Shown here: in pieces, positions 9,233-52,800 of the stretch
How the letters are laid out: every line of letters starts with the position of its first letter
Position numbering within the stretch: position 1 is the first letter of the stretch
Assembly (NCBI GenBank): GCA_017531225.1
Contig: JAFXLL010000009.1
Span: forward strand, 1-64,000
Direction: 5' to 3'
Length of the DNA stretch: 64,000 nt
Source of the DNA: Bacteroidales bacterium
GTDB lineage: Bacteria; Bacteroidota; Bacteroidia; Bacteroidales; F082
Translations under genes and position numbers: made by a program
The notes under the pieces: model-generated
Databases searched by the model: none
The model's input: the letters and a program-made list of their open reading frames with translations, nothing else
Told to the model about the DNA's origin: nothing

Positions 9233-9676
9233 TTATTTGATTTGTTTTTCTTCTGACTTCTGACTTCCGACTCCTGTCTTCTGTCTTCTTTTCATAGCGA
9301 CATAACCGCTTCCTGCCGCCAACAGCATTAGCAGCCCACCGCCCAAAGGTGCTTCGCCGAAGCCTTGGTGCGTGAAGTTGCCCGAGTAGTTGCTGCCGAA
9401 ACTTTGGTGGGTGAATTCATTCAAGTAGGTAAAGCCAAAGTTTTGATGGCTGAAATCACCTATATAGGCACAGCCAAAGCCTTGGTGGATGAATGTTCCC
9501 ATGTAATTGCTGCCGTAGCCTTGGTGGGTGAAGGACCCGTTGTAATCTTCACCAAAGTTCTGGGGCATGAACAGTCCGACACCCTGCGCCTGCGCCCCAA
9601 GCGGAAGCCAAACGGCAAATGCCGCGGCCCAAGCAAGTAGGAGTGCCCTGCGCTTTGTTTTCAATCGTTGTTTCAT
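9233..9676 (-). CDS. secreted 13-residue tandem-repeat protein with PLGGG/membrane/basic tail
   Basis: 147 residues from the ATG at 9676. An upstream in-frame ATG (9700) is rejected because it falls at the predicted transcription start. After a signal peptide (cleavage near AQA), the mature protein is five 13-residue units of pattern F-x-x-Q-x-(F/Y)-G-x-x-Y-x-(G/N)-x (residues 36-100). A sixth, partial unit merges into APLGGG, followed by a hydrophobic stretch and KRRQK. The tail matches that of the protein at 1608-1913. The Gly/aromatic/Gln composition suggests a stacked beta structure such as an amyloid-like or adhesive surface fibre; this is inference. The last residues are encoded by the heptanucleotide repeat at 9251-9292. 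First gene of an operon with the lipoprotein. Confidence 0.7.
   Translation of the reverse strand: MKQRLKTKRRALLLAWAAAFAVWLPLGAQAQGVGLFMPQNFGEDYNGSFTHQGYGSNYMGTFIHQGFGCAYIGDFSHQNFGFTYLNEFTHQSFGSNYSGNFTHQGFGEAPLGGGLLMLLAAGSGYVAMKRRQKTGVGSQKSEEKQIK
9251..9292 (-). repeat. heptanucleotide tandem repeat (6 units)
   Basis: On +: TTCTGAC x2, TTCCGAC, TCCTGTC, TTCTGTC, TTCTTTT, in strict 7-nt phase. It covers the 3' end of the repeat-protein gene, 41 nt before the next start codon. Read on the minus strand it contains GAAGACAGGAGT, also present at 30258-30285. Confidence 0.85.
9377..9571 (-). repeat. five 39-bp tandem repeats encoding 13-residue units
   Basis: Each unit encodes F(T/I/S/M)(H/P)Q(G/N/S)(F/Y)Gxx Y xx x. 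The DNA units are diverged mainly at the residues after Gly and after Tyr, so the repeat is under protein-level constraint and not a fresh expansion. Confidence 0.85.
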
Positions 9677-9704
9677 AGGCAATTGCTTTGTTTTTTTCAC
9701 GTTA

Positions 9705-9735
9705 CAAAAATAAAGGGCTGTCTAAGGCGAAACAA
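9705..9735 (-). promoter_or_regulatory. promoter of repeat-protein operon
   Basis: Minus strand: TTG (9735-9733), 20-nt spacer, TATTTTTG (9712-9705). The transcript would begin near 9700, which decides the ATG at 9676 as start. Confidence 0.65.
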
Positions 9736-9803
9736 CTACCCAAAACTCGCATTTTTGCCCTTGAGGTGGGGGCCAGTCTTTTTTTTTCAATATTTTTGTC
9801 ACC

Positions 9804-11582
9804 GTGAAACAAAGAATCATCATCATAGGATTGCTTTTGGTAGCGGCTTGGGCCAAGGCGCAGACCAGCGACGAACTGTTACTGATGGTGGATAGCGCCT
9901 ACGCCGAGGCGATGGCGGGACATCTTCAGGAGGCCATTGCCATCAATGAAGAGGGATTGGCCCTGGTGCCAGCCGACTCGTTGGGCCTGAAGTGTGAGTT
10001 CTACTCCTGCCTGCTTTACTGCTACCACCGGCTGGGCGACTATGAACAGGCGTTGCGCTATGGCGAGCTCTGCCTCAATTACGATGAGCGCTTTGGAGCG
10101 CCCTCTGACCTCTCTGCTTCGCTGGGCAACCTGGCGGGCATCTATTCCTCGGTGGGCAAGCACGACGTGGCCATCGGCTACCTCAACCGCGCCATCGACA
10201 TCGAAAACGAGCTGCTTGCTGCTGATGAGAACTACTCGCCGAAGTCGCTCGCCGTCCGCAAAGCCATGCTGGGTGAGACCTTGGTGGCCAAAGCCCTCAC
10301 CCTGCCGAAAGACGAACGTGAGCCGCTGCTCCAACAAGCCCTCGACCTCACCAACGAGGCCTATCTTATCGACTTACGACTGGAACGCACACCACAAATG
10401 GGGATGCGGCTTTCACAACTCGGCAATATCTACAAGCAGCTTGGTGACTCGGAGCAAGCCCGTGAGTGTAATGAGAAAGCCTTGGACATTGCCCGGCAAA
10501 CCGGGAACCGCCCCTCCGAGGTGATCACTCTTTTACAACTCGACCGATATGAGGAAGCGGCTGAATTGGCTCAAGCCATCGGCATGAAGAAACAAGAGAT
10601 GGAAGCCTGCCGAAATCTTGTAGAGGAATACAAGATGGCAGGCCGTTATCAGGAAGCCCTTTCTATGTCGGAGCGCGCCGCGATTCTCGGTGAAGCCATG
10701 CTGAATGAGGAAAGCGAGCGTCAACTCACGATGTGGCAAGTACGCTACGATACCCAACAGAAGGAGCAACAGCTGCAGCTTCAGGAACAGACCATCCGCG
10801 CCCAACGTATGCGGTTGTTTTGGCTGATTACTGTCACGGTGTTGGCGTTGGCGGCCATCGTATTCCTGGTGCTCTACGCACGACTCCAAAAGCGCATCCT
10901 TCGTGTCAAGGACCGCAACTATGCTATTCTCACCCACGACCTCAAGAACCCGATGTTGGCGCAACAGCAGATGCTCCGGATGTTCTACAAGAACTTCGAG
11001 AACTACAGCCGTGAAGAGATCCAGGAGAACCTCGGCAAACTCCTCACCAGCAGCGACAACCAGATTGACCTGCTCTACAACCTACAGCAGATGGCGCTCA
11101 TCGAAAACGGCAAACAGAAAGTTAGCCCCGTGCGCATCGACCTCGCCAGCATCGTCAGCGAGGTGGTCGGCAACATGCAGAGCTTCGCTGATCTGAAACA
11201 CATCGCTTTGGTCAACAACGTTAAACGTAGTCTTGTCATGGCCGACCGCAACGCTGTGCGCACTGTGCTCCGCAACCTTTTGAGCAATGCCGTCAAGTAC
11301 TCGTTCGAAGGTGGCACTGTCGAGATTGGTAACACTCCAGACGGCCACGGCTTCTTCGTCCACGACCATGGCATCGGCATGACCGAAGATCGTGTCAAGG
11401 AATTGTTGTGTGCTAAACAAGTTATTGTATCTCAAATAGATACGAGATGGAATGGAGGTACAGGTATAGGATTGATGCTCTGTCGTGAGCTCATCCGCCT
11501 CAACCACGGCACCATCGATATCACCAGTGTTCCGCAAAACGGCACCACCATAACAGTGACCTTCCCATCAACTTCCAACTAA
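9804..11582 (+). CDS. TPR-containing membrane sensor histidine kinase
   Basis: 592 residues with a GTG start. A signal peptide (about 1-19) is followed by a periplasmic tetratricopeptide region (about 30-290), one transmembrane helix (about 339-358), a HisKA-like segment with phosphoacceptor His378 (THDLKNPM) and an HATPase_c domain. The latter has the N box LRNLLSNAVKYS, G1 HDHGIGM and G2 GGTGIGL. The layout suggests that protein or peptide binding to the TPRs controls phosphorylation of the LuxR-type regulator encoded 22 bp downstream. The -7 box TATTTTTG (9791-9798) is so close that the message is nearly leaderless. The sensed signal is unknown; the adjacent divergent repeat-protein operon is a plausible target, by position only. 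Confidence 0.88.
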   Translation: MKQRIIIIGLLLVAAWAKAQTSDELLLMVDSAYAEAMAGHLQEAIAINEEGLALVPADSLGLKCEFYSCLLYCYHRLGDYEQALRYGELCLNYDERFGAPSDLSASLGNLAGIYSSVGKHDVAIGYLNRAIDIENELLAADENYSPKSLAVRKAMLGETLVAKALTLPKDEREPLLQQALDLTNEAYLIDLRLERTPQMGMRLSQLGNIYKQLGDSEQARECNEKALDIARQTGNRPSEVITLLQLDRYEEAAELAQAIGMKKQEMEACRNLVEEYKMAGRYQEALSMSERAAILGEAMLNEESERQLTMWQVRYDTQQKEQQLQLQEQTIRAQRMRLFWLITVTVLALAAIVFLVLYARLQKRILRVKDRNYAILTHDLKNPMLAQQQMLRMFYKNFENYSREEIQENLGKLLTSSDNQIDLLYNLQQMALIENGKQKVSPVRIDLASIVSEVVGNMQSFADLKHIALVNNVKRSLVMADRNAVRTVLRNLLSNAVKYSFEGGTVEIGNTPDGHGFFVHDHGIGMTEDRVKELLCAKQVIVSQIDTRWNGGTGIGLMLCRELIRLNHGTIDITSVPQNGTTITVTFPSTSN

Positions 11583-11603
11583 AAACACCCAACTACCAAC
11601 TGC
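11569..11603 (+). repeat. heptanucleotide tandem repeat between kinase and regulator (5 units)
   Basis: CAACTTC, CAACTAA, AAACACC, CAACTAC, CAACTGC in 7-nt phase, ending directly before the ATG at 11605. It includes the kinase stop codon. Confidence 0.85.
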
Positions 11604-11604
11604 C

Positions 11605-12231
11605 ATGAACATCGCATTGTTAGACGATCACGACCTCATCCGCGCCGGCATTCGCAGTGCCCTTAGCGGCATGCCGCATCGGGTGACCATCGACGTTGGC
11701 ACCGCCGATGACTTCTTCGATGCGCTCGTCAACGGCACACCTTGTGATTTGGTGCTGCTCGACGTGCTCATGCCTGGCACCAACGGCATCGAAGTGGCGC
11801 AACGGCTGCGTGCTGAGTACCCCGGCATTAAGATTATCATCGTGTCGGTTGACACCAAGGAATACATCATCAACCAGCTCATGCAGATTGGCATCGATGG
11901 CTTCATCAGTAAAAACGGCCCTCTCGAGGAGGTACGCGCCGCTGTGGCATCGGTGGAGGATGGGGTGCCCTATTACGGTCACGACCTCGCCGTGTTGGTG
12001 CGTGACATAGTGGATGCCCGTCTTGACAAACGTTCTTCGTCAAAACTTACCAAACGTGAGCTGGAGATCATTGAGGCCAGCTGCAACGGGCTGATGGGCA
12101 AGGAGATTGCTGATAAGTTCCACATCAGTCTTAGAGCAGTGAATTCCCACAAGACAAATATCTTCAATAAATTAGGATTAAGCTCTTCCGTTGAGATGGT
12201 TCGTTTCGCCCTCGAAAACGGAATTATTTAA
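11605..12231 (+). CDS. LuxR/NarL-type response regulator
   Basis: 208 residues. The receiver domain (1-120) has acidic DDHD at residues 7-10, phosphoacceptor Asp53 in LVLLDVLMPG, and the usual Ser/Lys positions (VSVDT, SKNG). The C-terminal LuxR helix-turn-helix runs from about 142 to 205, with KLTKRELEIIEASCNG, GKEIADKFHISLRAVNSHKT and a dimerisation end. It pairs with the kinase encoded immediately upstream. The stop overlaps that of the convergent deaminase gene in a shared TTAA (12228-12231), so no terminator fits between them. Confidence 0.93.
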   Translation: MNIALLDDHDLIRAGIRSALSGMPHRVTIDVGTADDFFDALVNGTPCDLVLLDVLMPGTNGIEVAQRLRAEYPGIKIIIVSVDTKEYIINQLMQIGIDGFISKNGPLEEVRAAVASVEDGVPYYGHDLAVLVRDIVDARLDKRSSSKLTKRELEIIEASCNGLMGKEIADKFHISLRAVNSHKTNIFNKLGLSSSVEMVRFALENGII

Positions 12232-13256
12232 TGCTGTCCCTCGTACTGCTGGACTTCGTCATATTTGTAAACCAGTTCGATGCCGACTTGGCGGAACATC
12301 TCTTCTGACTCGGCGCCGTCATGGTAACGGCGTTCGCACACCACGCGCACGATGCCGCAGTTGATGATGAGCATGGCACAGGTGCGGCAGGGAGTCATGC
12401 GGCAGTAGAGCGTGCTGCCATCGAGGGCTATGCCCCTACGGGCAGCCTGGCAGATGGCGTTCTGCTCAGCATGAACGGTGCGGACGCAGTGTTGGGTGAC
12501 GCTGCCGTCTTCGTGGATGACCTTACGGAACAGGTGCCCCACATCGTCGCAGTGCGGAAGTCCACGCGGTGAGCCTACGTAGCCCGTCACCAAGATCTGC
12601 TTGTCCTTGACGATGACACAGCCGCTGCGACCACGGTTGCAGGTGGCACGCTCGCTGACGGTGTCAGCAAGATTCAGGAAATAGTCGTCCCATGATGGAC
12701 GGACATGCAGTTGGGTGAGGACCTTCTCCACCTGTTGGTGCAGTTCGGGAATGCTGCCGTCGTTCATGAACACGAAGTCGGCTTGCTTGATGCAGGCACC
12801 GAGGTTTTGTTTGTTGGGATCGGTGGCGGTCATCTCGCGCTCTTCATTGGCCACAAAAGTCTCGAAGCTCACGTGGTCAGTCTCCGAGCCGCGCAGATAG
12901 ATGCGGTCGTAACGGATGCGACGGTCTGCGTCGACAGCGAAGAGGTAGAACTCGCCTTTTTGACGTAAAGATGCAATCTCACCAGGAGTACGGACGCTCT
13001 CGATGACGGCGTTTTTGCCTTCGGCTTTGGCACGCTCATAGAGTTGGTCGGTGATGTAACTCGGCGTATGTGCGGCACGCAATTCGTTACCCATGGCGGT
13101 GAGCGTGTCGCGGTTCACCGCTTGTCCACGCTTGACGATCTCTTCGGTGATGAAAGCCCGCACCGAATAGTGCACAAAGCCTTTTTCCTTGATCAAATAA
13201 TCGACGATAGTGCCTTTGCCTGCGCCTAACGTCCCGGTGATTCCAATGATTATCAT
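12228..13256 (-). CDS. P-loop nucleotide kinase-like / dCMP deaminase fusion
   Basis: 342 residues in two domains. The N-terminal half (about 1-185) is a P-loop kinase-like domain with Walker A GTLGAGKGT at residues 7-15 and an IESVRTPGE stretch, resembling dephospho-CoA/adenylate kinase-like enzymes. The C-terminal half is a zinc cytidine/dCMP deaminase: VHAEQNAI supplies the His ligand and catalytic Glu, and TPCRTC the two Cys ligands. dCMP deaminase makes dUMP for thymidylate synthesis. A P-loop plus deaminase layout is also found in AvcD antiphage deaminases, but this protein is shorter and sits in a housekeeping context, so a nucleotide-pool role is the safer reading. It follows the LOG gene by one base. 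Confidence 0.8.
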   Translation of the reverse strand: MIIIGITGTLGAGKGTIVDYLIKEKGFVHYSVRAFITEEIVKRGQAVNRDTLTAMGNELRAAHTPSYITDQLYERAKAEGKNAVIESVRTPGEIASLRQKGEFYLFAVDADRRIRYDRIYLRGSETDHVSFETFVANEEREMTATDPNKQNLGACIKQADFVFMNDGSIPELHQQVEKVLTQLHVRPSWDDYFLNLADTVSERATCNRGRSGCVIVKDKQILVTGYVGSPRGLPHCDDVGHLFRKVIHEDGSVTQHCVRTVHAEQNAICQAARRGIALDGSTLYCRMTPCRTCAMLIINCGIVRVVCERRYHDGAESEEMFRQVGIELVYKYDEVQQYEGQH

Positions 13257-13257
13257 C

Positions 13258-13854
13258 TTATTTCTCTTTTATTTGTTCTTTGATTTCAACGACCCATTTG
13301 TCCACGTCGGCAGGCTGGAATTGTTTCATCTTTTCCAATAAATCCTTTGGATCGTCGCTGACGATGAGGTTGTCGGCGTGTTCCCTACGCATGAAGCCTT
13401 CTTTAGCAATGTGGTCGATAAACTGCACGATGCCGTCGTAATAACCGTCCACATTGAAAAGCGCCACGGGCTTGTCGAACACACGCAACTGGCTGAGCAC
13501 GTAGACCTCGAAAAACTCGTCCATGGTTCCAATGCCGCCAGGCATGACGATAAAGCCGTCCGCCATGTCTTCCAAAACCTTTTTGCGTTCAGCCATCGAG
13601 TCCACCACAATCATCTCGTCAATACCTTCGTGACCCACATGCATATTTGACAAGTGTTGGGTGATGGTGCCAGTCACCTTGCATTGGCGTTCAATCATCA
13701 CGTCGGCAATGATTCGCATCAGCCCCACGCTGCCGGCGCCATAAAGCAACTCGCAGCCATTGTCGGCCAACACATGGCCCAATTCGGCAGCCTTCTCACG
13801 ATAGATGGGGTTGAACCCCATGCTGCTGCCACAAAAAACGCAAATTTTCTTCAT
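13258..13854 (-). CDS. LOG family (TIGR00730) nucleotide 5'-monophosphate phosphoribohydrolase
   Basis: 198 residues from the ATG at 13854. A longer frame upstream runs antisense through mtnN and is rejected. It has a Rossmann-like start KKICVFCGSS, a YGAGSVGLM loop and the family signature PGGIGTMDE (about residues 105-113). These enzymes release the base from nucleotide monophosphates, historically annotated as lysine decarboxylases or cytokinin-activating LOG. Co-transcription with the kinase-deaminase fusion one base downstream is consistent with nucleotide salvage or pool cleansing. Confidence 0.9.
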   Translation of the reverse strand: MKKICVFCGSSMGFNPIYREKAAELGHVLADNGCELLYGAGSVGLMRIIADVMIERQCKVTGTITQHLSNMHVGHEGIDEMIVVDSMAERKKVLEDMADGFIVMPGGIGTMDEFFEVYVLSQLRVFDKPVALFNVDGYYDGIVQFIDHIAKEGFMRREHADNLIVSDDPKDLLEKMKQFQPADVDKWVVEIKEQIKEK

Positions 13855-13868
13855 GTGGATATTTTTTG

Positions 13869-13891
13869 CAAAGATAGTTTTTTTATCTTTG
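13869..13891. promoter_or_regulatory. symmetrical divergent -7 boxes of LOG (-) and mtnN (+)
   Basis: CAAAGATA (13869-13876) and TATCTTTG (13884-13891) form an 8-bp inverted repeat around 7 nt. Each is a perfect TAnnTTTG box for one strand. The -33 elements are weak, so regulation or an activator may be involved. Confidence 0.65.
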
Positions 13892-13912
13892 TAAACTTGA
13901 AATCTTGAAAAT

Positions 13913-14665
13913 ATGAGAAATATTGGCATCCTTGGCGCTATGGCGCAGGAAATTGACGAGGTAAAAGCCCTCTTGACAGAAAAAACCGTTGTAAAAATCG
14001 CCAACCGTGAGTTTGTGGTGGGCAAGATTGGCAATGTGCGTTGTGTGGTGGCCTTCTCCAAGTGGGGTAAGGTGGCGGCTACCATCACCGCAACCTTGAT
14101 GATACAGGAATTTGGTGTCACTGACTTGTTTTTCATAGGCACGGCAGGTGCTATGGCCGATGGCTTGAAGGTGGGCGATATCGTCATCTCCAAGCGTATG
14201 GTGCAGCACGACTTGGATGCCCGTCCTATTATCCCGCGCTTTGAAATGCCTCTGCTTAACCGCACTTATGTGGACAGCGACTTAGACCTAACCGAACTGG
14301 CTGGGAAGGCAGTCAGCAATTTGTTGGAAAAAGGTGTCGAAAGCATTGTGGGCGAAAAAGCCATCAAGGAATTCAACCTTGCTCCGACCTTGTATTTTGG
14401 TGACATTGCCAGCGGTGACCAATTCATCAGCAATGATGACAAACGTCAGGAAATCCTAAGCTTCTTGCCAGATATCCTCTGCGTGGAGATGGAAGGCGCT
14501 GCCGTGGCACAGGTTTGTTTGGAGTTCAACACGCCCTTCACTATCATTCGCACCATCAGTGACACCGCCAACCACAACGCCCATGTCGATTTCAACAAGT
14601 TCATCGCCGAGGTGGCCAACGCTTACTCGAGGGCCATTGTCAGCGAGATTGTCAAGCTCGTTTGA
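13913..14665 (+). CDS. mtnN: 5'-methylthioadenosine/S-adenosylhomocysteine nucleosidase
   Basis: 250 residues. The N-terminal GILGAMAQEID and the later FFIGTAGAM, DIVISKRMVQHDLDARP, SGDQFI and VEMEGAAVAQVC follow the MtnN/Pfs pattern, with the Glu of VEMEGA and Asp of TISDTAN as substrate and catalytic residues. It cleaves adenine from methylthioadenosine and S-adenosylhomocysteine, recycling methionine and relieving product inhibition of methyltransferases. The leader is about 16 nt. It is convergent with the zinc-ribbon gene, with a 2-bp gap and no terminator. Confidence 0.93.
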   Translation: MRNIGILGAMAQEIDEVKALLTEKTVVKIANREFVVGKIGNVRCVVAFSKWGKVAATITATLMIQEFGVTDLFFIGTAGAMADGLKVGDIVISKRMVQHDLDARPIIPRFEMPLLNRTYVDSDLDLTELAGKAVSNLLEKGVESIVGEKAIKEFNLAPTLYFGDIASGDQFISNDDKRQEILSFLPDILCVEMEGAAVAQVCLEFNTPFTIIRTISDTANHNAHVDFNKFIAEVANAYSRAIVSEIVKLV

Positions 14666-14667
14666 AA

Positions 14668-16239: not shown

Positions 16240-16246
16240 GGTCTGT

Positions 16247-17405: not shown

Positions 17406-17416
17406 AGCACTTTTTT

Positions 17417-17458
17417 AACTTTTATCTCTTAACTCTAAACTTTTAACTTTTTATCTTA
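17417..17458 (+). repeat. heptanucleotide tandem repeat upstream of manA (6 units)
   Basis: AACTTTT, ATCTCTT, AACTCTA, AACTTTT, AACTTTT, TATCTTA in 7-nt phase. It runs into the manA -7 box TATCTTTG (17457-17464). Confidence 0.75.
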
Positions 17459-17464
17459 TCTTTG
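17457..17464 (+). promoter_or_regulatory. -7 box of manA
   Basis: TATCTTTG ends 20 nt before the manA ATG. No TTTG at the -33 position; the heptanucleotide repeat occupies it. Confidence 0.55.
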
Positions 17465-21603: not shown

Positions 21604-22278
21604 TTATATTTTTTTTGACACTCTGATCACACTGAGTTGCCTTTCCTCTACCTTGAAGTTGATGTTCAGGCCACCGAATGCCAAGCCGTAAACCCGTTCA
21701 GGGTCGTCTTGATACTGTGGCCTCGGGTCGTGGGCTAAAACGGAGATGAGACTCTCGCGTTGCGTTTCTGGAATCTTTTCGAGAAGCTCATCTGGAATGG
21801 TGACTTCTAGTAGGTATTCTGCCGGTTTTGAGGCAAATCCGCTGACGGCATCAGGATGGCTGTCAGTGTAAGCGATGTAGGGCTTGATGTCGTAGATGGG
21901 GGTGCCATCCATCAAGTCTGCACCTGAAACGTGAAGCACGGGGCCAAGTTTCGGATCCATTTCGATCTTTTCCAACCGAACGGAAGAAAGCCCAATGGGG
22001 TTAGGTCTGAAAGGTGACCTTGTGGCGAACACGCCTTTACGCACATTGCCACCGAGTCGGGGAGGGCGTACCGTGGGTGACCAAGTGTCTCTTACAGCTT
22101 CGGAAAACTCCCAAATCAGCCAAAGATGCGAGAACTCCTCTAAGCCTCGTACTGCCTCGGGATTGCGATACTCTGGCTCAAACACGATGGTTCCTTGGAG
22201 CGACTCAATGATGCCGCTTTGACGTGGAATCCCAAACTTGGTTGGGAATTCAGTGTGTATCTTCGCAATAACTCTCAA
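21604..22278 (-). CDS. trmO: tRNA (t6A37)-N6-methyltransferase TrmO (TsaA/YaeB family)
   Basis: 224 residues. Family motifs are KFGIPRQSG near residue 13, LEEFSHLWLIWEF, KGVFATRSPFRPNPIGLSSV and DLMDGTPIYDIKPYI, then a short C-terminal domain with DPRPQYQ. TrmO uses S-adenosylmethionine to methylate N6-threonylcarbamoyladenosine at position 37 of tRNA-Thr. It lies 9 bp downstream of the aspartate kinase gene and probably shares its transcript. The start overlaps a heptanucleotide repeat. Confidence 0.92.
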   Translation of the reverse strand: MRVIAKIHTEFPTKFGIPRQSGIIESLQGTIVFEPEYRNPEAVRGLEEFSHLWLIWEFSEAVRDTWSPTVRPPRLGGNVRKGVFATRSPFRPNPIGLSSVRLEKIEMDPKLGPVLHVSGADLMDGTPIYDIKPYIAYTDSHPDAVSGFASKPAEYLLEVTIPDELLEKIPETQRESLISVLAHDPRPQYQDDPERVYGLAFGGLNINFKVEERQLSVIRVSKKI

Positions 22279-22307
22279 CTTTATCTTTTATCTCTCAACT
22301 ACAAACT
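22270..22307 (-). repeat. degenerate heptanucleotide repeat between lysC and trmO
   Basis: On +, AACT begins at 22270, 22277, 22297 and 22304, with TCTTTTA and TCTCTC units between. Phase is 7 nt with one slip. It spans the trmO start and the aspartate kinase stop. Confidence 0.65.
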
Positions 22308-23571
22308 GAAGTGTGCTACGGCTGCTTTGTTTTAGATAGATCTTTTTCCCTTCAAGGAAACGGTCGCCCATGGTGTACGAATAGTCGTAATGACGGATGG
22401 TAAACAGCGTCAGACCTTTGTTGTATTTCACCTGGAAGGTCTCACGGAGCGCTGCTAGAAGTCCTTTTAGCTTGCGTTCATCATAGTCGAAGCAGAATGA
22501 GAGCATCAAGGCCGAGGTCTGAATAACGTTGGCGTGGATGTTCAGCTCGTCGCAGGCGGAGAAGATGAGTTGCAAGTTGTGTTCGTTCATGAAAGAATAG
22601 TCGCGGGGCGAGATGGATACCAGCGTTTGGTCGTCCTTGACGATATACGATGGGATTTTCTCAATGCTCGGGTCTGCATTGCCATCAATGATGGAAGGCT
22701 GATGATCAGGATGCAGGAAAGACTGTACCTTGAGGGTGATATTCTTGTTCTGTAACGGCTTGATGGTCTTGGGGTGGATGACGGAGGCACCGTAAAATGC
22801 CAACTCGATGGCTTCGGAATAGGTGATGTGAGGGAGTTGAACCGTCTCGTCGAAGCGTTTCGGGTCGGCGTTGAGCAGGCCATCCACATCCTTCCAGATG
22901 GTGACCTCCTCAGCATCGAGGCAGTTGGCGAAGATGGCAGCGGTGTAGTCGGAACCTTCGCGACCCAAGGTGACGCTATGTTTGCCTTCGACGGTGGCTC
23001 CAATGAAACCTTGTGTGATACACACGATACCGTGGATGTGCTCGTCGTTGAGTTTGCTGATGCGTAACCTGGTCTCGTCCCAGTCAGGGGAGGCTGAGCG
23101 GAAGCGGTCATCGGTCAAAACATATTTTCTGGCATCCAACCAGCGGCAAGGTACCTCACTATGGTTCAAGTATTCCTGAATAATGGTGGTGGAAATGAGT
23201 TCGCCATAGCTCACCGTTTGGTCGTATTGGTAGTCGTAGGGTTGGTCAGTCTTTTGGAGTTTCTCCCAAAGCTCGATGAAAAGTCCTGCGATGTTTTCGG
23301 TGAAATCGGGATTGACTTTATCGCCGAACAGTCCTTCGATGATGCCTTCGTGATAGGAAATGACCTCATGTAGGGCGTCCATGCCAAGCTCGCCATTGTG
23401 CTCGCGGAAGTCTTTCAAAACTTTTTCCAACATGTTGGTGGTCTTGCCCATGGCAGACACCACAAGGAAGATATCCTCATCCTTATGCTGGGCTACAATA
23501 TTCTTGAGATTGCGGACGGCATCGGCGTCTTTCACCGAGGCGCCTCCGAATTTATATATTTTTCTGATCAT
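22288..23571 (-). CDS. lysC: aspartate kinase
   Basis: 427 residues. It opens with the kinase motif KFGGASV (residues 7-13), followed by VVSAMGKTTNMLE, GREGSDYTAAIFA and an ACT-type C-terminal region (DDQTLVSISPRDYSFMNEHN, about 325-345). It phosphorylates aspartate in the first step to lysine, diaminopimelate, threonine and methionine. It is monofunctional, with no homoserine dehydrogenase domain. A -7 box CAAAAATA (23595-23602, read on minus) gives a leader of about 15-20 nt. Confidence 0.9.
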   Translation of the reverse strand: MIRKIYKFGGASVKDADAVRNLKNIVAQHKDEDIFLVVSAMGKTTNMLEKVLKDFREHNGELGMDALHEVISYHEGIIEGLFGDKVNPDFTENIAGLFIELWEKLQKTDQPYDYQYDQTVSYGELISTTIIQEYLNHSEVPCRWLDARKYVLTDDRFRSASPDWDETRLRISKLNDEHIHGIVCITQGFIGATVEGKHSVTLGREGSDYTAAIFANCLDAEEVTIWKDVDGLLNADPKRFDETVQLPHITYSEAIELAFYGASVIHPKTIKPLQNKNITLKVQSFLHPDHQPSIIDGNADPSIEKIPSYIVKDDQTLVSISPRDYSFMNEHNLQLIFSACDELNIHANVIQTSALMLSFCFDYDERKLKGLLAALRETFQVKYNKGLTLFTIRHYDYSYTMGDRFLEGKKIYLKQSSRSTLQFVVER

Positions 23572-28628: not shown

Positions 28629-30261
28629 GAAACTGATGATCGTGATATGCCTGCTTTCAGCCTTGACATTGCAGGCTCAGACGGTTGAGAAGCAGATTCG
28701 CAAAGGCAACCGTCAATACCGTAAGGGCAACTATACTGAGGCGGAGACACAATACCGCAAGGTGCTGGATGCCAAACCCAACAGTGCCGAAGCCCAGTTC
28801 AACCTTGGTGATGCTCTCTATAAACAAGAGAATTACAATGATGCCTTTGATGCTTTCCAGAAGGTGATAGAGTTGTCTCCCGATGCCAAGTTAAAGTCGA
28901 AGGCGGTGTTCAACATGGGCAACTGCCTGTTGGAGCAAGGACGCTATTACGATGCTTTTAATATTTATAAGGTGTCGTTAAAACTCGATGCGGACAATGC
29001 TGATGCCCTCTACAACTTGGAGTATTGCAGGGCACATCTCGTTAAGAGTCATATTTGGGTGAATTCTCAGATTCCGCACGGAATGGTTGAAGCCAGCGAG
29101 AGTGAAGCTTTCAACGGACAAATGGTGGCCTTGACCTCAAAGGCTGATGACGAGTATGCTTTGTCGCAATACATCGTGGTGAAGGCTGATGACCAACAGG
29201 TGACGGTGAATGTGAGTGGCAACCGTTTTGAGATGCCTAAGTTCGACGTGATCGTGACAGCAGAGTTTAAACAGTCACATAAAATCACCATTGACAAGAA
29301 GATTGAGCATGGTACTATCTCGGCTGACAAGACGAAAGCCATCGAAGGCCAGCAGGTGGTGCTACATGCCAATCCTGATCCAAGCTATATGGTTGATCAT
29401 TATAAGGTGTATAAGACAGGTAGTCCCAAGGATACTGTTCAAGTCAACGACACAGTGTTCAAGATGCCTGATTTCGATGTTACGGTCACGGCTAAATTCC
29501 GTACCGCCTTGCGTGTGAGTATCGATACAACGTCTCATGGAACAATTGGAGTGACAGACTCTTTGGCATTGCCTGGACAGAACATCGGCATCATTGTCAA
29601 GCCTGACCAGGGTTACCAGTTGGACGAACTCCGAGTGACCAGCGACAAGGATGCTTCAACAACAGCTCCAGTTAACGATATGAACTTGTTCCAGATGCTT
29701 GATGCTGACGTGACGGTGCATGCTTCGTTTGTGGAGGCACAGGAGTACTATAAGGTGGTGGCCGATACCGCAGTTGAAGGAGGTCATGTGTTGCTCGACG
29801 TCGACAAGGCCACACGAGGAGAGACTGTTTCGCTGAGGAATGCTCCTGAACCTGGCTATCAGTTTAAGGAATACAAGATCTGCCAGCTGGGCGATACCTC
29901 GATCCATGTGCAGCCTTTGGGTAACTTCTTCACCATGCCTGGCATGGATGTGATGGTTAGCGCTGTGTTCGAAAAACAGGATGGTGAAAACCAGCAACAA
30001 CAGCAGCAACAACAAGATCAGAAGCAGGACGAGCAGGAACAGCAAGAGCAACAGCAGCAGCAAGACCAGCAGCAAAGCCAGCAGGATCAGCAGCAACAAC
30101 AGCAGCAACAGCAGCAACAACAGAACTCACAGGATATGTCGAAAGACGATGCCCAACGTATGCTGGATGCCCTTGAAAATCAAGAGAAGAAGACCATGGA
30201 AAAGGTCAACGAACAAAGGATAAGGACCCAACCGAAACGAAAGACAGACAAAGATTGGTAA
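28621..30261 (+). CDS. batC: BatC, TPR protein with four inserted InlB-like beta repeats
   Basis: 546 residues from the ATG at 28621, which overlaps batB by 8 bases; an upstream in-frame ATG inside batB lacks a signal peptide and is rejected. Order: signal peptide (about 1-19), TPR units (about 24-140), four beta repeats of about 77 residues (143-218, 219-295, 296-374, 375-454) of pattern HGxIxx..AxxGxxVxLxAxPDxGYxxxxYKV..FxMPxxDVxVTAxF, a Gln-rich segment (about 456-502), and a conserved BatC tail SKDDAQRMLDALENQEKK. Known BatC proteins go directly from TPR to Gln-rich tail, so the repeats are an added domain. The pattern resembles divergent InlB B-repeats, usually found on cell-surface proteins. 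Confidence 0.85.
   Translation: MSKKLMIVICLLSALTLQAQTVEKQIRKGNRQYRKGNYTEAETQYRKVLDAKPNSAEAQFNLGDALYKQENYNDAFDAFQKVIELSPDAKLKSKAVFNMGNCLLEQGRYYDAFNIYKVSLKLDADNADALYNLEYCRAHLVKSHIWVNSQIPHGMVEASESEAFNGQMVALTSKADDEYALSQYIVVKADDQQVTVNVSGNRFEMPKFDVIVTAEFKQSHKITIDKKIEHGTISADKTKAIEGQQVVLHANPDPSYMVDHYKVYKTGSPKDTVQVNDTVFKMPDFDVTVTAKFRTALRVSIDTTSHGTIGVTDSLALPGQNIGIIVKPDQGYQLDELRVTSDKDASTTAPVNDMNLFQMLDADVTVHASFVEAQEYYKVVADTAVEGGHVLLDVDKATRGETVSLRNAPEPGYQFKEYKICQLGDTSIHVQPLGNFFTMPGMDVMVSAVFEKQDGENQQQQQQQQDQKQDEQEQQEQQQQQDQQQSQQDQQQQQQQQQQQQNSQDMSKDDAQRMLDALENQEKKTMEKVNEQRIRTQPKRKTDKDW
29992..30123 (+). repeat. CAG/CAA microsatellite encoding a Gln-rich segment in BatC
   Basis: Nearly uninterrupted CAG/CAA codons with scattered Glu, Asp and Lys. 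The reverse strand gives a long Leu-rich open frame that is only the complement of this tract. Slippage would change the length in multiples of three. Confidence 0.85.
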
Positions 30262-30285
30262 TTAGAAGTTAGAAGACAGGAGTAA
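30258..30285 (+). repeat. heptanucleotide repeat between batC and batD
   Basis: GTAATTA, GAAGTTA, GAAGACA, GGAGTAA in 7-nt phase, ending 2 nt before the batD ATG and spanning the batC stop. It shares GAAGACAGGAGT with the minus-strand reading of 9251-9292. Confidence 0.8.
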
Positions 30286-30287
30286 GA

Positions 30288-46896: not shown

Positions 46897-46913
46897 ATTT
46901 ACTAATTTAGCGG

Positions 46914-46921
46914 CAAATTTA
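46914..46921 (-). promoter_or_regulatory. -7 box of the PASTA operon
   Basis: TAAATTTG read on minus. On the plus strand a TTATTTTG at 46926-46933 may serve ddl. Confidence 0.5.
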
Positions 46922-46936
46922 ATAATTATTTTGGAT

Positions 46937-47911
46937 ATGAAGAATGTAGCGATAGTTTGTGGTGGAGATTCAGGTGAATTTGAGATCTCCATCAAGAGCG
47001 CTCAGGTGGTGAAAAAAAACCTTAACCCGGAGCTTTACGATTCAAAGATTGTGGTGGTTTCCAAGAAAGGGTGGTATTGTCTTTTGGACGATGGCACCCA
47101 TTTGGATGTCGATAAGAATGATTTTTCCGTTCAAGTGAATGGCAAAAAGATTAAGTTTGACGTTGCTTTCAACGCCGTCCATGGCGAGCCTGGCGAAAAC
47201 GGTCCTTTATCTGGTTATCTGGAGTTGATGGGCATCCCTTGCACCTCTTCTGACCAGACCACATGTGCGCTTACTTTCCATAAAGACTTTTGCAAACGCG
47301 TGGTGGCTTCTTACGATGTCAAAGTGTCACCTTCAGTGCTGATCAATAAAGGAGATACCTACGATGCGGACGAAATCATCAAACAATTGGGACTGCCGTT
47401 ATTTGTGAAGCCGACTTGCAATGGCTCCAGTGTGGGCGTGACCAAGGTGAAGACTGCTGAGCAATTAGTTCCTGCTATTAATACAGCCATGGCGGCAGGC
47501 AGTCAGGTAATGTGCGAGAAATTCGTTGACGGCCGTGAATTTGGTTGCGGTGCCATGTGCTACAAAGGCAAGATGATGGTATTCCCGCTCACCGAGATTT
47601 GCAGCAAGAATGAGTTCTTCGACTATGAAGCGAAGTACACCGCTGGCAAATGTGACGAGATAACGCCGGCCCAAGTAGACGAGGACATCGAAATTGAAAT
47701 CAAGGCCACTACGGCAATGCTGTATGAAAAATTGGAATGCAAGGGCTTTGTCCGTATGGACTACATCGTCAGTGACGAAGGCGTGTTCTTCATTGAGGCG
47801 AACATCGTTCCGGGTATGTCGGATGCGAGTATCATTCCATCGCAGGCGCGTTGCTTCGGCCTGACGTTGGAGCGGCTATTCGGGATGGCGATAGAGAACG
47901 TCTTGGAATAA
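46937..47911 (+). CDS. ddl: D-alanine-D-alanine ligase
   Basis: 324 residues from the ATG at 46937. ATP-grasp fold with AIVCGGDSGEFEISIKSA at the N-terminus, NAVHGEPGENGPLSGYLELMGIPC, PLFVKPTCNGSSVGVTKV and EANIVPGMSDASIIPSQA. It forms D-Ala-D-Ala for the peptidoglycan stem peptide. Divergent from the PASTA gene, convergent with frr across a symmetric terminator. Confidence 0.96.
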   Translation: MKNVAIVCGGDSGEFEISIKSAQVVKKNLNPELYDSKIVVVSKKGWYCLLDDGTHLDVDKNDFSVQVNGKKIKFDVAFNAVHGEPGENGPLSGYLELMGIPCTSSDQTTCALTFHKDFCKRVVASYDVKVSPSVLINKGDTYDADEIIKQLGLPLFVKPTCNGSSVGVTKVKTAEQLVPAINTAMAAGSQVMCEKFVDGREFGCGAMCYKGKMMVFPLTEICSKNEFFDYEAKYTAGKCDEITPAQVDEDIEIEIKATTAMLYEKLECKGFVRMDYIVSDEGVFFIEANIVPGMSDASIIPSQARCFGLTLERLFGMAIENVLE

Positions 47912-47915
47912 AAGA

Positions 47916-47940
47916 AAAAGGAGCCGATCGGCTCCTTTTT
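47916..47940. terminator. bidirectional terminator between ddl and frr
   Basis: Perfect symmetric hairpin AAAAAGGAGCC-GATCGGCTCCTTTTT type, stem GGAGCC/GGCTCC with flanking A and T runs. It serves both convergent genes. Confidence 0.9.
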
Positions 47941-47943
47941 CTT

Positions 47944-48507
47944 TTACACTGTCAAAATATCTTTTGACTTCAACTCTGTGAGGTCATCAATTTTCTTGAT
48001 GTATTTGTCGGTGAGCTTTTGGATTTCTTCCTGAAGCAGTTTCGACTCGTCCTCTGAGATGGTATCCTTTTCAAGTTTCTTGGCTTCGTCGTTGGCGCTG
48101 CGGCGGATGTTGCGGATGCCCACTTTGGCATCTTCAGCAGCGGTCTTGGTGCGCTTGACGAGATCGCGACGGCGCTCCTCGGTCAACGGGGGAACGGAGA
48201 TACGGAGCAGCTCGCCGTTGTTCATGGGGTTGAATCCCAAATTGGCGTTCAGAATAGCCTTGGCGATATTATTGAGTGCACTCTTGTCGAACGGAACCAC
48301 AACGATCATGCGTGCATCGGGGCAGCCGATGTTAGCGGTCTGCTCGATGGGCACGGTGGTGCCGTAATATTCAACCATAACGCCGTTCAGCATGGCCGGA
48401 CTGGCTTTTCCTGCCCTGATGCCCTGGAACTCGTGCTCCAAGTGCTTGATGGTGTTGTCCATGCTTTCAGTGGCTTCGTCTAATACAAATTGAGATTCGT
48501 CTGTCAT
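47944..48507 (-). CDS. frr: ribosome recycling factor
   Basis: 187 residues, normal length. GIRAGKASPAMLNGVMVEYYG (arginine and GxASPxxL pattern), RMIVVVPFD, then ISVPPLTEERRRDLVK and the C-terminal helix KLTDKYIKKIDDL. It splits post-termination ribosomes with EF-G. It lies in the order pyrH - membrane protein - frr, a variant of the widespread pyrH-frr pair. Confidence 0.96.
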   Translation of the reverse strand: MTDESQFVLDEATESMDNTIKHLEHEFQGIRAGKASPAMLNGVMVEYYGTTVPIEQTANIGCPDARMIVVVPFDKSALNNIAKAILNANLGFNPMNNGELLRISVPPLTEERRRDLVKRTKTAAEDAKVGIRNIRRSANDEAKKLEKDTISEDESKLLQEEIQKLTDKYIKKIDDLTELKSKDILTV

Positions 48508-48541
48508 AGTTCAAGAAATTTGAGTGCAAAAATAACATTTT

Positions 48542-49120
48542 TTATAAAACCAAGGCACAAGTTCCGATGAAAAGCAATCCGATGACCGCAATTGCAGTTT
48601 GGGACTTTGACATGGTGCTGCTGCGGTAGAATGAGAAAATTGTGATAATAAAGAAAGGGAAAAAGAAGAGTGGTAGGATCAAGAAACCTGCGATGCTGAC
48701 CCAGCCGATGATACGTACTTTCTTGTTCCAACGTCCCAGGATGAAAGGCAGGATGACCAATAGCCCGGTGGCGAACATGAAGAGGTAGGAATCATACATG
48801 CTGTACCTCAGGTAATCAACGACGAGAACTGGCCATGGCGTTGTAATCTCAGGAAGTTGTCCTTGAAACATCGTGAGTTGGCTGACAGCAAAGAAAGTGG
48901 CAGCCAGCAAACCGGTCTTGCGGCAGTTCCACAACTTGCCAATATAGTATACGAGACCTATAGCAGCCACGTTGAGGAATGCAAACAGCAGTCCCGACCA
49001 CAGTTCATTCTTCCAAAGGCGGAGGCCAAAAGCCGTTAGTAGGATCACACCCAAGAGGGCATAATCCAACTTACGGCTGGTCTTGTTCCTTACCTTCCTT
49101 AAATGATGTTTTCTGATCAT
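48542..49120 (-). CDS. inner-membrane protein between pyrH and frr, unknown function
   Basis: 192 residues with a basic N-terminus (KHHLRKVRNKTSRK) and five or six hydrophobic segments (about 20-35, 40-60, 68-85, 110-130, 137-160, 172-192). No catalytic motif seen. Its start codon overlaps or abuts the pyrH stop at 49121, so it is read through from pyrH. I do not recognise the family. Confidence 0.65.
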   Translation of the reverse strand: MIRKHHLRKVRNKTSRKLDYALLGVILLTAFGLRLWKNELWSGLLFAFLNVAAIGLVYYIGKLWNCRKTGLLAATFFAVSQLTMFQGQLPEITTPWPVLVVDYLRYSMYDSYLFMFATGLLVILPFILGRWNKKVRIIGWVSIAGFLILPLFFFPFFIITIFSFYRSSTMSKSQTAIAVIGLLFIGTCALVL

Positions 49121-49828
49121 TTACTTCGTAACAAGTGTTCCGACTTCTTCTCCCTTGAGAACCTTCAGCAGGTTGCCTTTGGTGTTCATGTCGAAAACAT
49201 ACATAGGCATGTTGTTTTCCTTGCACATGGTGAAGGCAGTCATGTCCATCACTTTGAGGTTACGCTGGTAGGCTTCGTCGTAGGTGATGTGCTCGAACTT
49301 GGTTGCGGTGGGGTCCTTCTCGGGGTCGGCGGTGTAGATGCCGTCCACGCGGGTGCCTTTCAGGATGATGTCGGCCTTGATTTCCACGGCGCGGAGTGCA
49401 CTACCGGTATCGGTGGTGAAGAAAGGGTTGCCGGTGCCACCGCCCATGATGACGATGTGGCCTTCTTCCAGCAGGCGGATGGCCTTGGCCGAGCTCATAG
49501 TGTCGGCAATACGGTCGATGTAAAGACCGGAGAGCAGGGTGGCTTTTTGCCCTTTGCCTTGAAGCGTTGATTGCAGTGCCATTGAGTTGATGACGGTGGC
49601 GAGCATGCCCATGTAGTCGCCTTGGATGCGGTCCATGCCTTTGGAAGCGCCTTGCAGACCACGGAAGATGTTGCCGCCGCCAATGACGATACCGATTTGC
49701 ACGCCGCTCTTGGCAGCCTCGATGATTTCGTCGGCATAATCGTTCAAACGTTGTGGGTCGATGCCGTATTGCTGGCTGCCCATCAGGGCTTCGCCGCTAA
49801 GTTTCAAAAGAACGCGATTGTATTTCAT
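49121..49828 (-). CDS. pyrH: UMP kinase
   Basis: 235 residues. LLKLSGEALMG at the start, IGIVIGGGNIFRG, GMLATVINSMALQ, GGTGNPFFTTDTGSALRA and the ending ENNMPMYVFDMNTKGNLLKVL are the standard PyrH motifs. It phosphorylates UMP, is GTP-activated and is a key step of pyrimidine supply for RNA and cell wall. It lies 20 bp downstream of the C10 protease gene, the gap being a heptanucleotide repeat. Confidence 0.97.
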   Translation of the reverse strand: MKYNRVLLKLSGEALMGSQQYGIDPQRLNDYADEIIEAAKSGVQIGIVIGGGNIFRGLQGASKGMDRIQGDYMGMLATVINSMALQSTLQGKGQKATLLSGLYIDRIADTMSSAKAIRLLEEGHIVIMGGGTGNPFFTTDTGSALRAVEIKADIILKGTRVDGIYTADPEKDPTATKFEHITYDEAYQRNLKVMDMTAFTMCKENNMPMYVFDMNTKGNLLKVLKGEEVGTLVTK

Positions 49829-49857
49829 AGTTGTCAGTTTGTAGTTGATCAGTTGAT
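49829..49857 (-). repeat. heptanucleotide repeat between C10 protease and pyrH
   Basis: AGTTGTC, AGTTTGT, AGTTGAT, then AGTT at 49851 (on +). It lies directly 5' of the pyrH ATG and runs over the protease stop. Confidence 0.75.
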
Positions 49858-52800
49858 TATGATTTTCTTGGTTTTATTATTGTTGGCGTTTTTCAGGATG
49901 TAGACGCCTGGGGTGAGCTTGGTGTTAAGGTCGGTGGCAACGACGCGGCCGGTCACGTCTAAGATCTCCAAAGAATCATCGGTAATGTCGAACTCGTCTT
50001 CGCCGGGATCATTGACCTCGCTTTCGCTGAAGACGAGCTTGAATCTTGATTCGTAATCGTCGGCCAAAGCATTGAAGCTATAGTTCGGAGTTTGGAGCAG
50101 GTCGATGTCGGCACCAGTGAGGTTGTCGACCAGATGGAGATAGTTGGGAGTTGGGAGTTGGGAGTTGGGAGTTGTTGAAACGGTCAATGTATATTCTCCG
50201 TCTTTTGGAGCCTTGAAGCACACTGGGATTTCGTTTTTATCGTCTTTAACGAGCATGATATAGGGCTGGCCGTTGCGGATAAGGTAAGTGTTGGAGCGCT
50301 TGCCTTTGAAATCGAGCAGGGGCATGCTAACGCCTTCGCCCATCTTCACGTAGGTTTTTTGGTTGTCAATCTTAATGCAAAGGAATGAATCCGTGGTTTT
50401 TTCACGACTTGTCTGATTCAAGGTGACAGATTGTTCCGGAGCTTCGGCCTTGACAAGGAAGCCTCGTCCTGAAGGAACAGTGTTGCTGGCTGAATAGACC
50501 CATTGATCGCCGTTTTCAAGGTAATAATAGCCATCGGAAACGTTGGCGCTTTTGGTGAAAGTGATGTCATGGGTAGTAGGATTGCCGAGGAGGTTGTATC
50601 CCTTGATGGATTCTTGGCTATTGCCATAACTTAGATTGACCGTCTCAGTGAAGTCGCCGTTGTTGAGGGTGCCTGTCATGTTTATGGTAGTACTCGGGCT
50701 ATGGGCGTACAGGTAGCCGTTGGTCTGGGTAATGGGAAAGTCTGTGAGATGAGCTTTGTAGTTGATCCATTCTTTTTCGCCATCTTCATCGTAAGCATAC
50801 AGGTCGTAGGAGCCGGTAGCAACTTGTGTTGGGGAGAATTCGGTGAATGGAGCGGCGATGGTGTACCAGCCGTCGCTATCGGAAGTGTAAGTTGTAATGC
50901 TTCTCTTGACGGTGGCTTTCACTCCATCGCTATGATGGATGAGCTGAGCACCATCTTCCAGAATAAGGTTGTCGGCGTTTGTGTTGGTTAATGAGCCGGT
51001 GACGGTAAGGGTGCTGCCGTTTGTAAGTGTCATCTTGTCGCTGTCACTAAGGGTTAAGGATGTAAGTGTGGCTGAACCTTTTGCAAATCCTTTTTGATTC
51101 GAAAAAGAAGTCTCACCCCCGTAGTAATTTGTAGTCACAGTAAATAAATTGACGGCATCGTTGCTTAAAGAGGCGTTGCTTGAGGTTGTGCTTAAACCTT
51201 TAGCAATCTTTGAACCATCTTGATAGAGGTTGTAAGTGTAGGTGCCATCGGTGAGGTGGGCTTTGATATACCAAGAGAAATTATATCCGGGATAGGATTC
51301 CAAATCAGTCGGATCCTCAGAATTCTCTCCCACAATACAAGCATTAGCATTATAACTTGATAATTGAAAACAGGAAATGGGGTAATTGACATCGGCGACT
51401 TCAGGCTTGACCACTATCCATAAATCTTGATTTTCGACGATTGGGATGGGATGACTAAAGGGAATATCGATCCAACCGCCGAGGCTGCACTTTAACACGC
51501 GTGTGTCGGCCAACGCATTGGCATCAGGCTTGTTGTTTACAGTGTTGGTGTAAACATAAACGGTATAGGTGCCAATACATTTCACCTTGATGCTGACTTT
51601 ATAAACCGATTTGCCTGGTGTCAATAGATTTGCGGGATAGCGATGTGCGTAATAGGAGAAATCCGCAGATAGGTACGAATCGCCATCGCCATAGGACACC
51701 TCGGTGGAGGTTTCAGGATAGCACCACTCGGGTGCTGTCCAAGAAAACACGGCTTCTTGGTTGGAGATAGAGGCACTTAAATCGTTTACAATCGGAGTTT
51801 TGTAAGGTACGTTGATTGACGTTGTGGCTGAAGTGTTTGCCTCGTCTCCCGAAACATCAACGCCCTTAACGCTATAGATAAGCTCCCCGGAAATTGGATA
51901 AGCGTCCTCGTAAGAGGTGTTGCTGACGTTAGAGGCTATAAGAACCTCATTGCAATAAATATTGTATTTGGAAGCGCCTTCGGAAGCGTTCCATGAGAGA
52001 AGAATCGTACCCGTAGTTGCTGATAAAGAGGCTTCAAATTCCGTTGGAGCAGGAATGATATGGGAAATGGTTTTGTAATCTGACGGCAATGACATTTCGC
52101 CGTTTGAATCAACGCTTCTGACATGATAAACATAGGTCCCGTATGGAATTCCTTCATCCACGAAGGTCTCCCCATCACTTGAAGTGGCGGTGCCGATTAG
52201 GGTTCCGTTTCTGAAAATCTTGTAACCGACTGCACTTGAAACGGCAGTCCAAGCTAAAGTGACATTTTTGGTTCCAGAGGTCAAAGTGGCGGAAAAGCCG
52301 GTGGGAGCGCTTACAGCACAAGTGGCAGGCTTGATGCCGAATATGGCTCCCTGGTTATAATTATAGTTGTGCGTACCGGGAGTCATGTCATCAAGAGAGT
52401 AGTAACCATCGTTATAGGAGCCTCCCCAACCCCAATTGAAATGGAAATTGTCGCTACTATCATAACCGTCGCAAACAAAAGCATGACCGCCAGACCCGTA
52501 ACCGAAGTATTCCATAGGCCTATGGGCATCCAGCTCTGCTTTCAAGTCGGCGATCCAAATTGCGGTGGAGTCGCTTGGGTATCTGTTCTTTAGATTGGCT
52601 GTAACGCTATAATCAAAATAATTGATGAGCGCTTGTGGAATGTCAATAGACTGAGCTCCGCTGCGATCTGCGCCATAGTCCATATTGACGGATACGCCGC
52701 AATGGTACATCAAGGTGGCAACAGCAAGTTTTTGTTCCTCGGTGCTGTTGTTGTTGTAAGTTAAGCTCATGTGACTCCAGTCGTATGTGGTTTCACTGAA

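Follow-up and report, generated by a model that had tools for sequence, protein, structure and literature searches.

Tandem arrays of degenerate 7-nt units, most of them at gene borders, recur in a 64,000-nt stretch of a Bacteroidales genome (family F082; GenBank assembly GCA_017531225.1, contig JAFXLL010000009.1, positions 1 to 64,000; hereafter the window), where an initial annotation had listed seven of them. The arrays are probably (at a probability of roughly 0.6) fast-evolving heptanucleotide repeats, created and extended in place in 7-nt steps and kept where coding permits. Tandem duplication, by replication slippage or a similar process, would generate them and add 7 nt per step; since such a step breaks reading frames, survival would be mostly outside genes. 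At gene ends, the strand whose units supply a stop (TAG, TGA or TAA on the purine or AGT strand) would mostly be kept, and deep in genes the stop-poor strand. Convergent genes each with a sense array would give rise to a hairpin, and touching or overlapping operon genes (TAATG) would be pushed 11-60 nt apart. In some relatives a second process would have spread heptamer-armed palindromes to dozens of sites. Most arrays would have no selected function.

The period is specific. Sites were scored by counting the bases equal to the base 7 positions on, taking the best count in any 21 positions, and arrays were called at a score of at least 17/21 in nineteen 20-kb stretches (380 kb) of the window's genome (2.58 Mb, 14 contigs), chosen regardless of arrays. 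Twenty arrays were found at lag 7 and 13 at the double, lag 14, as against one at lag 8 and none at lags 5, 10, 11 and 13. For lags 4-24, only 7 and its double stand out among periods that are not multiples of 3 (locus L062, which adds an artefact to this comparison, was excluded from all other counts). The same period dominates elsewhere. The phosphomannose isomerase of the window is closest to those of uncultured Bacteroidales metagenome-assembled genomes (MAGs), many apparently from ruminants, and is 72% identical to that of Candidatus Limimorpha equi. In 29 loci of near relatives, there are 63 arrays at lag 7 vs 6 at lag 8; a further 51 loci, from other and mostly Bacteroidales MAGs, have 63 at lag 7 and 9 each at lags 8 and 11; and the relative G017 has 34 at lag 7 vs 3 at lag 8. 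A unit length of 7 is enriched, and neighbouring lengths are not. Array densities vary from 20.5 per 100 kb in genome G010 and 12.9 in G020 to 1.1 in G109, of the same class, where the excess is slight (0.6 per 100 kb at lag 8; locus L293, chosen for its array, was left out of the density count). Some array counts, that of the 269-array set described below included, score overlapping neighbouring arrays separately.

Shuffled sequence gives the same picture. Five loci in the window reach at least 15/21, compared with a mean of 0.43 and a maximum of 2 in 100 local shuffles, and three reach at least 16/21 (mean 0.09, maximum 1). Two extra weak loci, 2947-2977 and 13255-13284, reach 14/21, a score that shuffles reach on average 2.4 times. 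Chance regularity of AT-rich spacers is compatible with site 49829 by itself (p 0.16). For all the sites together it is refuted by the lag-7 excess over shuffles, present in the window and in its genome, and over other lags in every set (slight in G109), and its probability is practically negligible. The initial annotation had judged the arrays too regular for such spacers, and had proposed enrichment over shuffles and a 7-nt periodicity as checks; on these samples both checks came out in favour of the arrays.

Steps of 7 nt at a fixed junction are seen between batC and batD. The region upstream of batD was read in 20 relatives, and 12 of them were set out alongside the window (relatives are cited here by locus, L, or genome, G). 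In 11 species with compact or NNNGAAG-type junctions, the window's included, the gaps between BatC and BatD are -1, 1, 5, 11, 26, 27, 32, 32, 33, 39 and 60 nt. The BatC stop and the BatD start overlap as TAATG in L401; short gaps of 1, 5 and 11 nt occur in L394, L400 and L398, and the window has 26 nt. Gaps filled with NNNGAAG units measure 27 nt in L393, 32 nt in both L395 and L396, 33 nt in L402, 39 nt in L397 and 60 nt in L399. The gaps of 11, 32, 32, 39 and 60 nt equal 4 modulo 7, which places TAA and ATG in one heptamer register (TAAGAAG...ATGAAGA). Other units have been found at the same junction, an AGTTTGA-type array in G010 (L403) and a TTTAGAG-type array in G017 (L412). Among the other eight relatives, L407 is compact (gap 2) and seven have longer spacers, three of them flagged by the detector (L405, L410, L411).

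Turnover has also been observed at other junctions. For example, one array differs by 14 nt between L129 and L130 (95% identical), and L122 and L126 (84% identical) show 7- or 14-nt differences at no fewer than four places. The window, L121 and L124 have a TAATG overlap at one junction, where L122 has a 39-nt insertion with an array and L125 a 70-nt insertion with a hairpin. At the pyrH junction (49829) the detector flags 6 of 20 relatives, and several others show AACT cores 7-8 nt apart. Counting the window, 7 of 20 species have a flagged array in the divergent gap at 17417, where most units of L122 and L137 have changed together (CAC, ATC). The 22270 site is, by flank similarity, the place of a two-armed hairpin with a different unit (CACTCCT) in L122 and L126. 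For 34 junctions present in at least 4 species, 51 of 350 instances have arrays. Expansion in place, as the initial annotation had proposed, agrees with these 7- and 14-nt differences and with the batD series, and units at one site do resemble each other. Copy number, which was to be compared between strains of one species, was compared between related species instead, and steps of 7 and 14 nt were found there.

Placement and orientation follow reading frames. Genes were called by a simple in-house hexamer script and not a standard tool, so that the counts are approximate and short or weak open reading frames (ORFs) may be miscalled. In four sequence sets, 206 of 269 arrays are mostly non-coding, while 89-93% of the sequence is coding. 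A stop codon lies inside 94 of the 125 arrays with a gene end in reach. A further stop codon is found 7 nt on in 35 of these 125 and 14 nt on in 28, compared with 8.9% and 6.6% of 2025 control genes. In co-directional gaps of at least 120 nt, the stop-proximal fifth holds 27 of 55 arrays and the start-proximal fifth two. Arrays that overlap stop codons have the AGT (purine, stop-bearing) strand as the sense strand in ratios of 55:9 between co-directional genes and 18:4 between convergent ones (73:13, ties apart). Off stop codons no preference remains (23:27), and arrays deep in genes lean the opposite way (AGT 10, ACT 19), with more stops on the antisense strand in 25 vs 5. An orientation bias at stops and none elsewhere argues for a coding filter and not a signal. 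A strand or sense signal, suggested by 77 AGT vs 34 ACT arrays in co-directional gaps, was rejected when the split by stop overlap and the in-gene arrays showed a stop filter; because orientation follows reading-frame tolerance, the main argument for such a signal is removed. As judged from sequence, a filter that removes frameshifts and lost stops would leave this placement at gene borders.

A total of 26 inverted pairs of arrays was found, with the G-richer arm first in 23:2 and one tie. Three are among the 54 array sites of the window's genome (L045, L061, L068), none of them within the window. In 7 of 10 convergent pairs both arms hold the stop of the gene on their side, and for these the stop filter predicts the G-richer-first polarity. 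Terminator-like stems lie within or next to some hairpins (L118 11783-11900). An intrinsic terminator was nevertheless set aside as the cause of the polarity, since the pyrimidine-richer arm comes first in 8 of 26 pairs (18:8, p 0.08) and a U-rich 3' arm is not the rule.

Hairpins of this kind between convergent genes, together with the anchoring at stops, the additional stop codons 7 nt on and the re-use of the same junctions, would be consistent with functional RNA elements at gene ends, acting as all-frame fail-safe stops, terminating hairpins, or signals for translation or coupling. Such a role is distinctly unlikely for the arrays in general. Orientation has no preference off stops, most arrays lack a partner arm, unrelated units occur at one junction (batD), and most species have no array at a given junction; in addition, the stop enrichment comes partly from the coding filter, as a stop-free array would be called coding. 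Of the three origins offered by the initial annotation, slippage is the most probable. For a protein-binding array or a translation or RNA-processing signal the sequences offer no positive support, and the missing orientation, the unrelated units at batD and a reversed control pattern about as common as AACT (see below) argue against both.

Within the window (Table 1), p is the share of shuffled blocks (2000 dinucleotide shuffles of 200 bp) with a best lag-7 count at least as high as that observed. Six of the seven listed sites exceed these local dinucleotide-preserving shuffles, 11569 weakly, and 49829 does not; the description of all seven as strictly phased was too strong for these two. The claim that six sites touch gene borders holds for 11569, 22270, 30258 and 49829, which contain the upstream stop codon (11569, 30258 and 49829 also end a few bases from the next ATG), and for 9251, in the last codons of an ORF; 17417 is in a divergent gap and touches no stop codon. 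The seventh site, 50142, is inside a gene as claimed, and the sequence GAAGACAGGAGT is indeed common to 9251 (read on the minus strand) and 30258. Not covered by that annotation were the link to stop codons, the inverted arrays, the palindromes dispersed in relatives and the prior descriptions of this kind of array.

Table 1. Heptamer arrays of the window, with the highest number of lag-7 matches in any 21 positions.
Position	Strand	Repeat	Lag-7 matches	p	Setting
9240..9292	-	heptamer array, sense GAAGACAGAAGACAGGAGTCGGAAGTCAGAAGTCAGAAG	17/21	0.0005	last codons of ORF 9233-9700(-), upstream of gene 7549-9210(-)
11569..11605	+	weak heptamer array, CAACTNC type	14/21	0.014	spans histidine kinase stop TAA (11580-11582) to response regulator ATG (11605)
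17411..17459	+	heptamer array, TTTTAAC/TTTTATC type	17/21	0.0005	divergent gap before phosphomannose isomerase gene (ATG 17485), not at a stop codon
22270..22308	-	heptamer array	15/21	0.001	includes stop (complement of 22288-22290) of amino acid kinase gene 22288-23571(-); adjoins TrmO gene 21604-22278(-)
30254..30287	+	heptamer array	15/21	0.0065	spans BatC-like TPR gene stop TAA (30259-30261) to batD ATG (30288)
49829..49857	-	AACT cores 7-8 nt apart	12/21	0.16, not significant by period alone	between C10 peptidase-like gene stop (49849-49851, minus) and pyrH ATG (49828, minus)
50142..50176	-	4.7 perfect units, AACTCCC on coding strand	21/21	0.0005	inside gene 49849-53433(-), ~100 codons before gene end

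The product of the gene that holds the perfect array is C10 peptidase-like, with a Spi inhibitor domain and a sub-threshold match to a type IX secretion system (T9SS) sorting tail. On its non-coding strand the array forms a quadruplex-type GGGN4 x4 run at 50146-50169, the single match to that pattern in the window (other loop lengths were not searched). ORF 9233-9700(-) has no Pfam match. The array at 17411..17459 terminates at TTATCTTATCTTTG, which presumably resembles the Bacteroidetes -7 box TAnnTTTG. The sequence TATCTTTG, at 17450-17463 of the window, adjoins the same array, and this site is kept in many of L120-L147 with or without an array; it resembles the Bacteroidetes -7 promoter box. 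Two tandem repeats of other periods have been detected in the window, a CAG/CAA-type repeat at 29992-30123, near the end of the BatC-like gene and glutamine-rich by codons, and a 24-nt repeat (2.9 copies, 95% matches) at 2084-2152, inside ORF 1970-2944(-).

Palindromes with heptamer arms are dispersed in some relatives. A hairpin of ~95 bp in L128 is missing from the 93%-identical relative L131, and both genomes have several further places that resemble it. Hairpins that share the stem top GGCAGCTT...AAGCTGCC are present in 5 and 11 copies in these two genomes (control 0) and were not found in five other genomes searched, the window's included. This family, with GGCTNCT heptamer arms, is seen at L128:7448-7540 and in G077 and G080 (L202-L236); its loop of ~30 nt differs between copies and in some holds a small palindrome of its own. 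In G010 the 27-nt arm of a GGAATGC-arm hairpin has 65 + 65 matches with up to 2 mismatches (reversed control 0). The copies retrieved are 81-96% identical over ~67-92 bp, and their loops vary (17-23 nt in the shortest reading) and have short motifs in common. Several copies start with TAATGCGG and finish with CCGCATTA, and therefore have stop codons at both ends. This palindrome is matched in 17 of 40 genus genomes. A form of ~86 nt with nearly constant GGAATGC arms, several copies bounded by TAA and TTA, is seen in G010 (L251:2885-2980, L325-L342), G023 (L343) and G008 (L344). A third hairpin, with GCGAGAC arms, is seen at L127:9935, L128:11559 and L131:11551, the junction in L127 differing from that in L128 and L131; its pattern matched 1 of 61 genomes, and it looks confined to few species.

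The arrays could derive mainly, as arms or remnants, from small palindromic elements dispersed in the genome, similar to miniature inverted-repeat transposable elements (MITEs) or repetitive extragenic palindromic (REP) sequences, inserted at junctions and later edited by slippage. Near-identical, MITE-like copies with inverted repeats at unlinked sites are indeed seen in relatives such as G010, as is the presence-absence difference between L128 and L131. Array similarity is clearly higher within than between genomes in G017 and G010, and same-class pairs scoring at least 35 make up 12% of 363 within genomes vs 1.8% of 283 between them. The excess is only slight in the window's genome (21.6 within vs 20.4 between, p 0.02), where copying between sites is barely detectable, and in G020 (22.6 vs 20.4, p 0.03); inverted pairs are few in the window's genome, and inspection by eye of the flanks of 21 palindrome loci revealed no target-site duplication. 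As a general origin, dispersed elements are unlikely. They matter in relatives, and may have seeded some arrays.

REP elements with REP-associated tyrosine (RAYT) transposases are dispersed intergenic palindromes that flank the RAYT gene. The palindromes of some relatives are likewise dispersed and intergenic, and 28 of 40 genomes have Y1 transposase domains. Genomes that carry the GGAATGC palindrome have Y1_Tnp more often than the others (16/17 vs 12/23, counted by hand with kinship uncontrolled). Unlike REPs, the arms here are tandem heptamers. In addition, only one array was found in 24 Y1 transposase loci (70.7 kb, not covering every Y1 match), compared with a background of 18.9 per 100 kb that was drawn from G010 and G020 only, the Y1 loci coming from more genomes. 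Mobilisation by RAYT was rejected, as the Y1 loci examined are not flanked by arrays.

The unit sequences vary widely. When fitted by expectation-maximization, the array consensuses come out as roughly YTYYNAA, read on the pyrimidine strand. An exact four-fold AACT pattern is present in 25/25 genus genomes, 3/16 of other families of the order and 59/148 across the phylum; the reversed control pattern (hand counts) is about as common, with 24/25, 3/16 and 55/148, and AACT was rejected as a privileged core. AACTNNN is only one of many dialects. Exact TAACTGA units in tandem are absent from the window and occur in 3 of 412 loci overall. One array of this exact unit, described for Beggiatoaceae, is at L293:14207-14269 in G109.

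Such dialects could have a dedicated source. A DNA synthesis or repair activity that steps by 7 nt, shared or re-evolved in Bacteroidales, Xanthomonas, Nostoc and Beggiatoaceae, might write heptamers into junctions. This is very improbable; if true, it would explain the fixed unit length, the genome dialects, whole arrays in TAATG overlaps, and an inverted-array polarity that matches a junction of two G-strand-extended ends. Still less probable is templated, telomerase-like synthesis that adds heptamers at breaks, with fused ends setting the hairpin polarity. The dialects and the polarity would fit this too, and there is a bacterial precedent in the DRT10 reverse transcriptases, which reportedly make short tandem DNA repeats on a short RNA template (PMC12632851). 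The repeats reported there are 9 nt long for Eco3DRT10, unlike the 7-nt units here. A reverse transcriptase domain (RVT_1) is found in 22 of 40 genus genomes (the window's genome lies outside this sample) and was not detected in G010, the array-richest genome sampled, although the gene could be missing from that assembly (150 contigs, 84% complete); a requirement for a reverse transcriptase is not supported. Units that vary within an array, the in-place growth of the batD series and the motifs common to palindrome loops also count against templated synthesis.

Duplication in place, 7 nt at a time and subject to a coding filter, accounts for most of the measurements on the window's arrays. Several observations weigh against it. 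Slippage alone does not account for expansion being limited to 7-nt units, and duplication in place leaves unexplained the dialects and the hairpin polarity off stops: six inverted pairs overlap no stop, and all five informative ones keep the same polarity. Unlinked sites share units more within a genome (0.077) than between genomes (0.019; shuffle maximum 0.044), with G017 alone at 0.204 and other genomes with at least 20 sites at 0.040-0.058, and G010 and G017 show clear copying between sites. Arrays recur at the same junction at 0.39 vs 0.14 shuffled. Inheritance explains part of this recurrence; batD nevertheless shows three different units. Multi-unit arrays or hairpins stand at TAATG-overlap sites (L122, L125) with no intermediates seen, and 6 of the 11 batD gaps are not 4 modulo 7. 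The comparison of close pairs gave two indels in arrays, of 14 and 8 nt, which are too few alone.

Heptanucleotide simple sequence repeats (SSRs) and cyanobacterial short tandemly repeated repetitive (STRR) sequences are among the closest known repeats. The architecture of heptanucleotide intergenic repeats is known from two reports (PMC4692102, PMC4679880). Both cite a survey of long SSRs (Mrazek 2007) in which heptamers were the most abundant class in most genomes studied, and slippage tied to a 7-nt polymerase contact has been proposed for heptanucleotide SSRs. The arrays here are degenerate, unlike those SSRs as described in these secondary accounts, and are likened to them by description only. 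Rehm et al. (2015) described GGGAATC and GGGGA(C/T)T heptamer arrays in Xanthomonas and Nostoc/Anabaena (PMC4692102). In that paper, the 7-nt unit has fixed and free positions, and the arrays are mostly intergenic and closer to the 5' neighbouring ORF (average 28 vs 160 nt). They are under-represented between divergent genes, show no gene-class preference, and mostly lie between the same genes in two species, with length and sequence differing. In Xanthomonas campestris pv. campestris (Xcc) there are 186 arrays, with 70 cases of two nearby arrays in convergent orientation. The present arrays are like these, as there portrayed, in unit length, in being mostly non-coding and near the end of the upstream ORF, and in their convergent inverted pairs. 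They differ in that G-tracts are missing from most units (50142 is the one fit to GGGN4 x4 in the window), many unit types occur per genome, and a stop-codon filter and a 7-nt ladder are resolved.

Direct repeats of TAACTGA have been reported in Beggiatoaceae, Cyanobacteria and five Bacteroidetes (MacGregor 2015, PMC4679880). In that report they are intergenic and close to gene borders, indels between close strains of Cyanothece are mostly in 7-nt steps, and the unit is a single exact one, in BOGUAY mostly forward and just before start codons. The arrays described here are similarly border-near intergenic heptamers in Bacteroidetes, with AACT in the unit and 7-nt steps; unlike the repeats in that account, they have degenerate units, are anchored at stops and occur in both orientations. 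Placement at start codons as in BOGUAY is not the rule (2/55), and single cases (11569, 49829) look like it. Beyond these two reports, no description was recognised for rumen Bacteroidales in a literature search that subscription papers mostly fell outside. The details that are new are the lineage, the mostly non-G-rich units, the many dialects, and the stop-codon filter and 7-nt ladder that could be resolved.

In a large group of rumen Bacteroidales that are uncultured, the arrays visibly and rapidly change the spacing of operon genes, and by moving these genes apart they may loosen translational coupling. The batD ladder provides a clean natural series for asking whether spacing alters protein ratios. 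The stop-codon control shows that border placement and orientation can mimic regulation when a coding filter is their source. Since unrelated phyla have a similar architecture, the choice of seven becomes a concrete question on DNA polymerases or repair.

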